This document shows positions 13,469 through 64,000 of a DNA stretch of 64,000 nt, one piece after another; positions within the stretch are counted from its first letter, which is position 1; each line of letters begins with the position of its first letter. The stretch is taken from contig NC_092671.1 of assembly GCF_964355755.1 (NCBI RefSeq), positions 25,852,070-25,916,069 of the forward strand, read 5' to 3'. The stretch is from Antedon mediterranea. Its lineage: Eukaryota > Echinodermata > Crinoidea > Comatulida > Antedonidae. Made by a program: the position numbers and the translations under genes. The notes beneath the pieces are model-generated. The model had not been told where the DNA came from and made no database searches. It saw nothing but the letters and a program-made list of their open reading frames with translations.

Positions 13469-13642
13469 GATAATGCCTGGTTAGCTCATCAGATCGTGCA
13501 AACTTCCAGCCACATCCTTTCCAGTTGCAAGCATAAGGTTTTTCTCCTGTTCAACATACGGAGGTTGATAAGTCATTTGTGGCATATAAATCCTCGGCAC
13601 ATAATAATATGGTGTTTCCCCGCAGTAATAGTGGTAAGCCAT
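13469..13642 (-). pseudogene. KLF remnant with internal deletion
   Basis: The first 30 or so codons ([20 protein letters not shown] and on to PPYV) are joined directly to part of the zinc finger 2 region, read in the wrong frame. The 3' end, including finger 3 and the stop, is missing. It lies at the left edge of the array, 18 bases from the last recognisable U5-unit sequence. Confidence 0.85.
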
Positions 13643-14920
13643 TTCTATACGTCCCCGCACTACGATTTTTTCAAACAGAATGTGTGATTGCTAAAGCTTT
13701 GTTGGAATTTAAGGTACAGGTGAATCATTGAATTATCATATAATTTGCGGACCATGACCGAAGCACTTCCGCTTCGATCTATTCGACGAAAATAAAAAAA
13801 AGGATAACTATTTTCTGCTTTATACTTAATTTAATGTAATGGTGATCTAATAAAAGGCGTAACAACACATAATACATATTGTAGTTTAATACTGGCTTAA
13901 ATATTTTTGTTTTATATAAACTGTATTCAAAAAAATAGTTCTTTTCTAATGAAGAATCTGGGAAGTTTACAATCAAGCAACAACACCACATTCTACGTGA
14001 ATTCTGCTGTACGTGAACTAGCCTTAATACCGCCTGATTACGGTATATAGGTCTACAGTATTAGCTTCAGAATAAATGACGACGCATTTGTTGTACCTTG
14101 ATAGACAGAGCCCCATTACAGATAATCTGTTCTGCAGCACAATACAACTGTACACGCGGTGATTCAACTAAAAGCAGTAAAAAGATTTTGGCACACAAGG
14201 CGTATCATATAATTTGCGGACCATAACCGAAGCACTTCCGCTTCGATCTATTCGACGAAAATAAAAAAAAGGATAACTATTTTCTGCTTTATACTTAATT
14301 TAATGTAATGGTGATCTAATAACAGGCGTAACAACACATAATACATATTGTAGTTTAATACTGGCTTAAATATTTTTGTTTTATATAAACTGTATTCTAA
14401 AAAATAGTTCTTTTCTAATGAAGAATCTGGGAAGTTTACAATCAAGCAATAACACCACATTCTACGTGAATTCTGCTGTACGTGAACTATCCTTAATACC
14501 GCCTGATTACGGTATATAGGCCTACAGTATTAGCTTCAGAATAAATGACGACGCATTTGTTTTACCTTGATAGACAGAGCCCCAAGCAGACAGCCCACAT
14601 TACAGATAATCTGCTCTGCAGCACAATACAACTGTACACGCGGTGATTCAACTAAAAGCAGTAAAAAGATTTTGGCACACAAGGCGTATCATATAATTTG
14701 CGGACCATGACCGAAGCACTTCCGCTTCGATCTATTCTACGAAAATAAAAAAAGGATAACTATTTTCTGCTTTATACTTAATTTAATGTAATGGTGATCT
14801 AATAACAGGCGTAACAACACATAATACATATTGTAGTTTAATACTGGCTTAAATATTTTTGTTTTATATAAACTGTATTCTAAAAAATGACAATTTAGAA
14901 CTTAATTTTGCAATAGTACC

Positions 14921-15047
14921 TAATTTGGCGCCTTAAACGCCAAATTAAGTGCGGTACCTCATTTGGCAGTGGTACCTCATTTGGCGTGACACCCCTACTG
15001 TTCTGTATCCCGTTTGTCTTAATTTCCAAGTAAAAATGAGGTACCAC
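14921..15047. repeat. Palindromic element in the U2 block
   Basis: TAATTTGGCG (14921-14930) and CGCCAAATTA (14938-14947) form a perfect 10-bp stem around a 7-base loop. GTGGTACCTCATTT (14969-14982) is inverted at 15034-15047 (AAATGAGGTACCAC), a perfect 14-bp pair. A GGTACCTCATTTGGC repeat adds a direct duplication. TTTGGCGC also fits the E2F consensus TTTSSCGC. It recurs in most U2 blocks, for example near 18701, 20816, 24536, 38750, 42100, 49610, 53850 and 61980. It may be an old MITE caught in the unit. Confidence 0.6.
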
Positions 15048-18000
15048 CACGTAACTCCTTATGATTAGGCTTATTATCATAGAAGAGTACTATACGGACG
15101 TCGTACCTGGAAATCACGGGAATTCAGTGTTTGTTGACCAATCATTTTTTAAAGAGCCGTATCTGACCATTGCATTGCCCAGTCTGTAAAATTACAGCAG
15201 GCCTACTTTATATTATTGTGTTTTCCCTGTTTATCGATACCATGAAGGAAAACGTTTTTGTTCAATCAGAAAACTTTGCGAGATTTTTTTTAATGGATAT
15301 TATAATTTATAGTTAGTCACCTGATTTTTGTGGCAAATCATTAATAGTTTTGACATTGTTAGGGACTATAAGACAGATTTTGGTTGCATGATTGTGGAAA
15401 ACCATCAATGTGGGTTTTTCTTCATACAAGCTACAGCCAAAATATAATAGGGGTATATATTTTTTCAAAGTCATCGTCAAACGCTGAGAGTCAATACAGT
15501 ATTTCAAACGCATTCTTTCACCTCTAATTGCTCACATTTAATTAATAATATACTGAAATAAATTCGAGAAAACATTAACTTATTGTGTTTTGTTTTATTT
15601 ATTGATCGTTGTTTATCGTTTGTAAACCACAGAAAACCACAACTATAAAGAATAAAACATAAATTCACAAAATGCAACAAATTAATACAGTATTTGCGAG
15701 TGCAATCATGAAACATTAATATTATAAGTACTTTATCGAAACATATAAAAATAATTGTGCAGATAATAGCACGTTGATATAAAATTCTTTCTATTTACAA
15801 GGAATTCATTTAATATTTAAATTTATTTCCAACGAAATGAAGAATCTGGGAAGTTTACAATCAAGCAACAACACCACATTCTACGTGAATTCTGCTGTAC
15901 GTGAACTAGCCTTAATACCGCCTGATTACGGTATATAGGCCTACAGTATTAGCTTCAGAATAAATGACGACACATTTGTTGTACCTTGATAGACAGAGCC
16001 CCAAGCAGACAGCCCACATTACAGATAATCTGCTCTGCAGCACAATACAACTGTACACGCGGTGATTCAACTAAAAGCAGTAAAAAAGATTTTGGCACAC
16101 AAGGCGTATCATATAATTTGCGGACAATGACCGAAGCACTTCCGCTTCGATCTATTCGACGAAAATCAAAAAAGAATAACTATTTTCTGCTTTATACTTA
16201 ATTTAATGTAATGGTGATCTAATAACAGGCGTAACAACACATAATACATATTGTAGTTTAATACTGGCTTAAATATTTTTGTTTTATATAAACTGTATTC
16301 TAAAAAATCACAATTTAGAACTTAATTTTGCAATAGTACCTAATTTGGCGCCTTAAACGCCAAATTAAGTGCGGTACCTCATTTGGCGTGACACCCCTAC
16401 TGTTCTGTATCCCGTTTGTCTTAATTTCCAAGTAAAAATGAGGTACCACCACGTAACTCCTTATGATTAGGCTTATTATCATAGAAGAGTACTATACGGA
16501 CGTCGTACCTGGAAATCACGGGAATTCAGTGTTTGTTGACCAATCATTTTTTAAAGAGCCGTATCTGACCATTGCATTGCCCAGTCTGTAAAATTACAGC
16601 AGGCCTACTTTATATTATTGTGTTTTCCCTGTTTATCGATACCATGAAGGAAAACGTTTTTGTTCAATCAGAAAACTTTGCGAGATTTTTTTTAATGGAT
16701 ATTATAATTTATAGTTAGTCACCTGATTTTTGTGGCAAATCATTAATAGTTTTGACATTGTTAGGGTTAGGGTTCCAACGAAATGAAGAATCTGGGAAGT
16801 TTACAATCAAGCAACAACACCACATTCTACGTGAATTCTGCTGTACGTGAACTAGCCTTAATAATAAGGCGTATCATATAATTTGCGGACCATGACCGAA
16901 GCACTTCCGCTTCGATCTATTCGACACATAATACATATTGTAGTTTAATACTGGCTTAAATATTTTTTTTTTATATAAACTGTATTCTAAAAAATAGTTC
17001 TTTTCTAATGAAGAATCTGGGAAGTTTACAATCAAGCAACAACACCACATTCTACGTGAATTCTGCTGTACGTGAACTAGCCTTAATACCGCCTGATTAC
17101 GGTATATAGGCCTATCAGTATTAGCTTCAGAATAAATGACGACGCATTTGTTGTACCTTGATAGACAGAGCTCCAAGCAGACAGCCCACATTACAGATAA
17201 TCTGTTCTGCAGCACAATACAACTGTACACGCGGTGATCCAACTAAAAGCAGTAAAAAGATTTTGGCACACAAGGCGTATCATATAATTTGCGGACCATG
17301 ACCGAAGCACTTCCGCTTCGATCTATTCGACGAAAATCAAAAAAAGAATAACTATTTTCTGCTTTATACTTAATTTAATGTAATGGTGATCTAATAACAG
17401 GCGTAACAACACATAATACATATTGTAGTTTAATACTGGCTTAAATATTTTTGTTTTATATAAACTGTATTCTAAAAAATGACAATTTAGAACTTAATTT
17501 TGCAATAGTACCTAATTTGGCGCATTAAACCCAAATTAAGTGCGGTACCTCATTTGGCAGTGGTACCTCATTTGGCGTGACACCCCTACTGTTCTGTATC
17601 CCGTTTGTCTTAATTTCCAAGTAAAAATGAGGTACCACCACGTAACTCCTTATGATTAGGCCTATTATCATAGAAGAGTACTATACGGACGTCGTACCTG
17701 GAAATCACGGGAATTCAGTGTTTGTTGACCAATCATTTTTTAAAGAGCCGTATCTGACCATTGCATTGCCCAGTCTGTAAAATTACAGCAGGCCTACTTT
17801 ATATTATTGTGTTTTCCCTGTTTATCGATACCATGAAGGAAAACGTTTTTGTTCAATCAGAAAACTTTGCGAGATTTTTTTTAATGGATATTATAATTTA
17901 TAGTTAGTCACCTGATTTTTGTGGCAAATCATTAATAGTTTTGACATTGTTAGGGTTAGGGTTCCAACGAAATGAAGAATCTGGGAAGTTTACAATCAAG

Positions 18001-62890: not shown

Positions 62891-62939
62891 AAATTTATTT
62901 CAAACGAGTTTTATCCGGAAGATTCGGTAATTGAGTTGT

Positions 62940-63767
62940 CTACATGTGGCGTTTCATGTGAAGAGACAAATGATCAGAACGAGAGAAAGCTCGTTCGCAT
63001 AGATGGCACTGGAAAGGTCGATCACCAGTGTGTTTACGATAATGCCTGGTTAGCTCATCAGATCGTGCAAACTTCCAGCCACATCCTTTCCAGTTGCAAG
63101 CATAAGGTTTTTCTCCTGTGTGCGTTCGGAGATGAGCTTTCAGGTGCGAGCTCTTTGTGTAGGTCTTGTTACAGCCTGGGTGTGAACATGTATGTGTCGT
63201 TGTTCTTTTCCTTCCCCATGTTCTGCGCTCTTTCCTTCGGTTCACCTGTAGATTCTGAAGTGGTTGTGACGAAAGAACACTTTCATTTGAAGAGTTGATG
63301 AGCAGGTCCATGAGTGGTGAAGTTGGAATAGAAACAGTCAAATGTGTAAGGTCAGAGGGTGCAAAAACATTATCCATATCTGACCGCATAAGTGGACTGT
63401 GCGGTTCCTGTTTTATCGCCATGCCCATTGATGAATCGTCAATATAACGTTTCTGTTGATCTGCGTTAGAATTGTTCAAGATAAAGTCCAAGTCGAGCAA
63501 ATTATCGTAGCAGTCCGCAATGGATGATGCGGGTGGGGACGAACGCATACTCGACGAACAGTCACTGACCGATGCTAGGCTGTTTGGTGAACATGTCTCT
63601 GTGCGTTGTTTACCTACCATGCTGTGATCCCAGTCGTGTAATAGCGACTCAACATCATTTGAAACCTGTGAGGGTAAAACATACGGAGGTTGATAAGTCA
63701 TTTGTGGCATATAAATCCTCGGCACATAATAATATGGTGTTTCCCCGCAGTAATAGTGGTAAGCCAT
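62940..63767 (-). CDS. KLF-type zinc finger protein, full-length copy 9
   Basis: 275 aa with L36S, Q53K and T166S. The last comes with a two-base change that turns TGACGTCA into TGACGAAA. These private changes make it the most distinct of the full-length copies. The zinc fingers match copy 1 exactly. Promoter-like block at about 63884-63901 and poly(A) signal at 62894. The array continues past the right edge of the window, which ends inside its U1 block. Confidence 0.9.
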
Positions 63768-64000
63768 TTCTATACGTCCCCGCACTACGATTTTTTCAAA
63801 CAGAATGTGTGATTGCTAAAGCCTTGTTGGAATTTAAGGTACAGGTGAATCATTGAATTATCATATAATTTGCGGACCATGACCGAAGCACTTCCGCTTC
63901 GATCTATTCGACGAAAATAAAAAAAGGATAACTATTTTCTGCTTTATACTTAATTTAATGTAATGGTGATCTAATAACAGGCGTAACAACACATAATACA

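Follow-up and report, generated by a model that had tools for sequence, protein, structure and literature searches.

The closest described counterpart of the locus reported here, a tandem array of intronless KLF frames in a 64,000-base stretch of the crinoid Antedon mediterranea (the window; C2:25,852,070-25,916,069, window base 1 being C2:25,852,070), is the human D4Z4/DUX4 array at 4q35, where a transcription factor retrogene with an intronless frame has the whole frame in each tandem unit (available part of PMC12376486). Further comparisons come from the KLF family itself, as covered in the accessible portion of PMC3820594. Tandem predicted KLF18 genes number at least 20 in the guinea pig and six in the rabbit, which goes against the original prediction for this stretch insofar as it held KLF genes to be normally single. 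Furthermore, Zfp352, Zfp352l and Zfp353 of mouse and rat are described there as KLF-derived genes without coding introns that have grown by retrotransposition and local duplication.

With D4Z4/DUX4 the crinoid array shares its layout, an intronless transcription factor frame complete within the units of a tandem array. In contrast to D4Z4/DUX4, the frames encode KLF zinc fingers instead of homeodomains, and the units are partly mobile element, come in several lengths, include in-frame mini-gene units and are nested in a cluster of U5 small nuclear RNA (snRNA) genes. Unlike the DUX4 retrogene, the C2 copy also looks DNA-derived rather than retrocopied. The KLF18 genes of guinea pig and rabbit, as far as the accessible source describes them, likewise represent a KLF family gene amplified locally in tandem, but they carry an intron between finger 1 and fingers 2-3, whereas the present copies are intronless, nearly identical and preceded by foreign upstream sequence. 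The Zfp352 group differs in comprising a handful of genes, strongly diversified and in part adjacent to one another, with no large array described in that portion of the source. No earlier report of the crinoid array was found in the literature searched, most subscription journals being outside its scope. What sets the locus apart is the combination of an intronless KLF gene, element-derived upstream sequence, in-frame mini-gene units and nesting among U5 genes. We regard the array as a real and young transcription-factor macrosatellite, most likely neutral or nearly so.

The KLF array and its copies

All copy numbers are taken from the genome assembly (354 Mb, C2 being a 41-Mb contig). The genome contains let-7, which suggests a bilaterian; searches with the GFP and COX1 families gave no match, which in neither case demonstrates absence. 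Positions refer to the window unless another frame is named; to follow the array further, the window was joined to the next 90 kb (154 kb, joined coordinates from window base 1). Within the window we counted nine intact full-length KLF open reading frames (ORFs), all on the minus strand. Eight of them encode 275 amino acids (19660-20487, 21771-22598, 23378-24205, 25488-26315, 29274-30101, 32480-33307, 39351-40178 and 62940-63767), while the seventh in order, at 35993-36826, encodes 277 owing to an in-frame 6-base insertion. Twelve identical truncated copies, corresponding to bases 586-828 of the coding sequence (CDS), lie on the same strand at 37680-37934, 41032-41286, 43285-43539, 44393-44647, 47449-47703, 48546-48800, 50568-50822, 51676-51930, 52784-53038, 54806-55060, 55914-56168 and 58970-59224. 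The original prediction of at least nine full-length and twelve truncated near-identical copies on one strand is thereby matched.

KLF similarity starts at exactly position 13469 with a rearranged minus-strand fragment (13469-13642) in which CDS 649-730 adjoins CDS 1-90. The in-window part of the array (13469-64000, minus strand) continues to about C2:25,990,360, where U5 repeats restart, and the whole spans some 125 kb. It holds 26 intact full-length copies and a further full-length one that has lost 2 bases, together with 15 identical truncated copies, two variant truncated copies and several shorter KLF fragments, so the proposed amplification of a KLF gene in a satellite-like arrangement is borne out. 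Over 826-834 bases, identity of the full-length copies to the query copy is 98.8-100%, far above chance. One and the same protein is encoded by 14 of the 26 open copies, and a second form is common to five. The frames of all 27 full-length copies in the joined stretch are free of introns, as had been expected, and a complete intronless frame is thus found within tandem units of more than 1 kb, as in macrosatellites of the DUX4/D4Z4 kind.

Assignment to the KLF family rests on three C-terminal zf-C2H2 stretches in the full-length copy. The best solved proteins matched by one three-finger stretch are KLF4 (168 bits) and KLF5 (157 bits); multi-finger ZNF568 entries reach a higher total score by summing several stretches, each of at most 64 bits. 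As regards the originally proposed KLF1/2/4 type, the KLF family is represented in the 60 top-ranking solved chains by KLF4, KLF5 and KLF10 only.

The truncated copies form a second class of potential gene. In the whole array, 17 copies begin near codon 196, namely the 15 identical 84-residue frames and the two variants, which have different upstream sequence. Each identical copy consists of the 5' untranslated region (UTR), the ATG and three further codons (MAYH), followed by codons 196-275 in frame to the stop, and all 15 retain ATG, frame and stop. In the predicted 84-amino-acid mini-protein, finger 1 has its first zinc-binding Cys replaced, so that the protein falls short of a three-finger KLF; fingers 2 and 3 are complete and the basic stretch preceding finger 1 is missing. 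If translated, such a protein could act as a competitor for KLF sites. A single deletion copied 15 times would explain the mini-genes equally well: since all 15 have one identical breakpoint they most likely derive from one event, and their number therefore gives no independent support for function.

Parent gene and anatomy of the units

Searches of the genome for this KLF, taking the best 140 of 1513 candidates at the protein level and the best 40 of 54 at the DNA level, gave no occurrence outside the C2 region apart from a single one on contig C6; the next-best match among those 140 is an exon on C5 at 77%. The original prediction had envisaged an intron-bearing parent. Instead, the nearest parent is the single C6 gene, one intronless open frame of 350 codons. 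Two relatives on C5 have KLF exons preceded by splice-acceptor-like sequence, and one of these (locus L012) is split between finger 1 and finger 2. According to the available part of PMC3820594, an intron separates finger 1 from fingers 2-3 in most KLF genes of mammals, KLF14 also being without it; this intron is absent from the array and C6 copies and present in the C5 relative L012. Given that the C6 gene is intronless while the usual intron persists in one or more other KLF genes of this genome, we infer that it is probably an old retrogene. Two tRNA matches lie about 2.2-2.7 kb 3' of the C6 gene (positions 7485-7556 and 7832-7892 of the 9.5-kb C6 locus, L010). Clusters of multi-finger zinc-finger frames occur elsewhere, at C6:20.23-20.42 Mb, C1:8.1-8.5 Mb and C11:1.36-1.39 Mb.

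Homology between the C6 locus and the array is confined to L010:4102-4631, 4850-5239 and 5941-6832, base-level alignment pushing the start a few bases further upstream. By this alignment the copied segment begins some 82 bases 5' of the ATG and ends roughly 1.6 kb beyond the stop, and the C6 upstream region beyond that point is absent from the array. An example of the common 3' flank lies at 18773-19659 (minus strand), is 95.9% identical to C6 and ends at the mobile-element end described below. Two pieces of the C6 locus are missing from the array: 222 coding bases (74 codons, in frame) with the 4-base repeat CCAA at their ends, and 704 bases directly after the stop with the 3-base repeat ACA at theirs. 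The 222-base piece is rich in P, S and Q and has ordinary transcription-factor character, and for this reason it would more likely have been lost in the array than gained at C6. Reading the two differences as introns was rejected, as no GT-AG ends were seen by eye at any possible breakpoint. At the 3' junction of C6-derived sequence with the element no poly(A) tract was found, and the homology runs beyond AATAAA motifs. The marks of a processed retrocopy (bounds at transcript ends, poly(A), introns removed) thus appear to be missing, and a direct retrocopy from C6 to C2 is disfavoured. With neither GT-AG ends in the missing pieces nor poly(A) at the junction, the copying from C6 to C2 looks DNA-mediated. 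As for the poly(A) sequences originally proposed for most units, AATAAA motifs were seen 3' of KLF in one unit displayed, and the proposal holds to that extent.

Read in the coding direction, a typical unit comprises an element block, a spacer, a second element block, the 5' UTR, KLF, the C6-type 3' flank and the 5' end of the element. Departures from this layout are many and unit lengths vary; in three full-length copies (32480, 35993 and 39351) other sequence follows immediately after the stop. Element sequence starts 91-92 bases 5' of the ATG in all 27 full-length and all 15 identical truncated copies. What had been taken as promoter-like upstream sequence belongs to a dispersed mobile element and is not the promoter of the parent. 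A TATA-like string can be seen by eye in this element part, and transcription, if any, would probably start in or near element-derived sequence.

The 301-base upstream block, exemplified at 20580-20880 (minus strand), has 93 matches of at least 150 bases in the joined 154 kb. Element sequence also makes up a 484-bp tandem repeat at 44739-45908 (minus strand), found again at 56260-57429 and 59316-60485, which aligns to the element throughout. For a 31-base piece of the element there are 130 genome-wide matches at three mismatches or fewer; among the matches listed, 90 are exact and in the array and 10 lie elsewhere (C1, C2, C3 and C4). We examined eight of these 10 dispersed loci, and all eight contain the element and none the KLF, unlike what gene capture by a transposon would lead one to expect. 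At six of the eight loci the start of the element coincides with the point joined to the KLF 3' flank in the array, although two of the six (L020 and L022) have common flanks and are perhaps not independent; in the remaining two (L015 and L017) the element start lies about 1 kb away from the rest. The array version corresponds to roughly the initial 660 bases of the element, with some 85% identity (gaps counted). The element has a well-defined 5' end and a poorly defined 3' end, and it has no match in the 9.5-kb C6 locus.

Other insertions are present in the array. An open frame inserted in two units (30374-31171 and 33689-34684) resembles the end of a LINE reverse transcriptase; the frame at 30374-31171 gave no Pfam match. 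An LTR retrotransposon-like insertion occupies C2:25,980,670-25,985,553 (L007:4601-9484), in which one open frame of 1627 codons gives matches to families of reverse transcriptase and of RNase H, and weak matches to those of integrase zinc-binding domains and aspartyl proteases.

The U5 snRNA host locus

The array is nested inside a tandem U5 snRNA gene cluster, between two of its parts. The original prediction mentioned neither this cluster nor the preserved frame of the truncated copies. Rfam identifies four U5 genes to the left (9671-9788, 10749-10868, 11390-11510 and 12957-13077, the last found before the KLF array) and eight to the right, up to C2:26,001,670, all on the plus strand. The two sides align with each other, at 91-97% identity in most long stretches and 78% in some. 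About 150 bases after a right-hand U5 gene there is a stray KLF fragment (C2:26,001,823-26,002,074). A genome-wide U5 scan yielded at least 47 matches, of which 29 are on C2 around the array, while C3 has 13, C10 four and C9 one; the scan missed some of the genes found with Rfam, and these counts are lower bounds. To our knowledge, tandem U5 snRNA clusters usually contain RNA genes only. The tandem U5 clusters of this genome consist of RNA genes, whereas here a protein-coding array stands between two cluster parts.

Further out, open frames in the left flank (2614-3498 and 3846-4523) and the right flank (L009:2658-3506) match no Pfam family. Those at 2614-3498 and L009:2658-3506 share motifs recognizable by eye, such as SGCxxTSxxxGKGK, and are perhaps members of an undescribed repeat or mobile gene family. 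Around the left-flank frames, a 159-bp tandem repeat type occurs in opposite orientations at 1923-2284 and 4726-5397.

Growth of the array, selection and competing explanations

The copies fall into contiguous subfamilies. Five at 62,940-79,417 (joined coordinates) have four base changes in common, seven at 82,009-98,828 have one, five at 105,907-117,618 have one, and the remaining nine open copies carry no such block mark. Such contiguity points to repeated local duplication, as by unequal exchange. The copy at the right edge (C2:25,988,560), which bears the 2-base deletion, has the C6 base at three sites where the other 26 differ, and because it retains these states it would have branched first. 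In the 3' flank, mean divergence is about 0.5% within the array, whereas that from C6 is about 3.5-5% (gaps counted). The amplification thus seems far more recent than the separation from C6.

The 26 open copies differ by 11 replacement and five silent changes, compatible with a neutral expectation of about 2.9 to 1 (binomial p 0.40; 0.30-0.50 over three transition weights); these counts exclude the broken right-edge copy, in which four further replacements and one further silent change occur. Of the explanations originally offered, neutral amplification thus fits best, though mild selection may act on the frame; for dosage need, sex linkage and drive the sequence gave no support. From C6 to the array root, as placed by the right-edge copy, two replacement and four silent changes (p 0.04; 0.03-0.06) suggest constraint on the branch to C6, and the fixed differences that separate C6 from the main array total four replacement and five silent (p 0.055). 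The array and the C6 branch do not differ significantly in this respect (Fisher p 0.18). Open frames as proof of selection were rejected: few mutations have occurred, with 16 coding substitutions in 26 copies, and the probability of zero stops is 0.42-0.51. Several observations nevertheless weigh against strict neutrality. Diversity is 0.0033 in the CDS versus 0.0053 in the 3' flank of the same 22 units (22 of the 26 open copies; those at 23378, 32480, 35993 and 39351 were excluded for other downstream sequence within 880 bases). No stops or frameshifts occur in the 26 copies, though these were selected as open. The 3' flank of 21 of the 22 units has 19 variable sites and four indel events, of which three involve a single base, the indels being under-counted given that the copy at 91058 was excluded for a further deletion; scaled by hand, the single-base indels predict about three disabling events in the CDS. 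Weak selection on the frame is therefore possible.

In this context, we put forward, as the fairly probable origin of the locus, the stepwise formation of a protein-coding macrosatellite in which a KLF copy acquired foreign upstream sequence, came to lie in a U5 cluster and was amplified close to neutrality. An intronless KLF gene, probably an old retrogene, would be represented by C6. A segment of it that excluded the upstream region would then have been copied to C2, where the 222 coding and 704 post-stop bases are missing, with microhomology of 3-4 bases at each. The 3' end of the segment abuts the 5' end of the dispersed mobile element, which also lies some 92 bases 5' of the ATG in every full-length and identical truncated copy, and the KLF-element composite would next have become positioned where it now stands, inside the tandem U5 cluster. 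Repeated unequal exchange, aided by the many element-derived repeats, may then have multiplied blocks of units, yielding the contiguous subfamilies and spreading one in-frame internal deletion to 15 copies; the copies of the array as a whole would evolve near-neutrally.

Other explanations have to be weighed against this origin. We regard as unlikely that the array is a functional, DUX4-like one whose copies are kept for a pulse of a short KLF isoform from an element promoter, with the mini-proteins as competitors. The frame of that isoform, 74 residues shorter than the parent, is open in 26 of the 27 full-length copies, the mini-genes are uniformly preserved, the CDS is slightly less diverse than the flank with fewer disabling changes than flank indels predict, and the element part offers its TATA-like string; but the replacement to silent ratio is near neutral, a frame has about a 1/3 chance of surviving one deletion, and the mini copies, with their one breakpoint, most likely reflect a single event. 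More speculative still, and rather improbable, is a full invertebrate counterpart of D4Z4, in which short KLF isoforms would be made from element promoters in a brief developmental or germline window and 15 two-finger mini-KLFs would compete with the full-length factor and the C6 parent.

Concerning the means of amplification, element sequence adjoins KLF-locus sequence at both unit ends, as it would if KLF were cargo carried around by the element. This we consider highly improbable, as the KLF is confined to the C2 region and C6 (best 40 of 54 candidates) and neither the C6 locus nor any dispersed locus examined has both element and KLF. A selfish or sex-linked amplicon, raised by meiotic drive, germline restriction or linkage to sex determination, would suit the recent and strongly local amplification of a regulator, but we lend it scant credence: the sequence by itself gives no positive sign of it, and the site of the array is a U5 cluster of a contig 41 Mb in length. 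Near-identical blocks as long as 5.8 kb (99.7%) raise the suspicion that the assembly inflates the copy number; such an artefact is very unlikely, for the units differ in length and carry copy-specific variants in ordered blocks, and the stretch contains no N.

The stepwise neutral origin would make this locus an example of a route from regulator to macrosatellite whose steps can still be read, including the loss of the promoter, the loss of a coding segment, the junction with an element, the site in an RNA gene cluster and the block-wise expansion. As a young and independent case beside D4Z4, it may provide an opening to test when such arrays become expressed or silenced. It also calls for caution, since what is annotated as the expansion of a gene family may be largely neutral.

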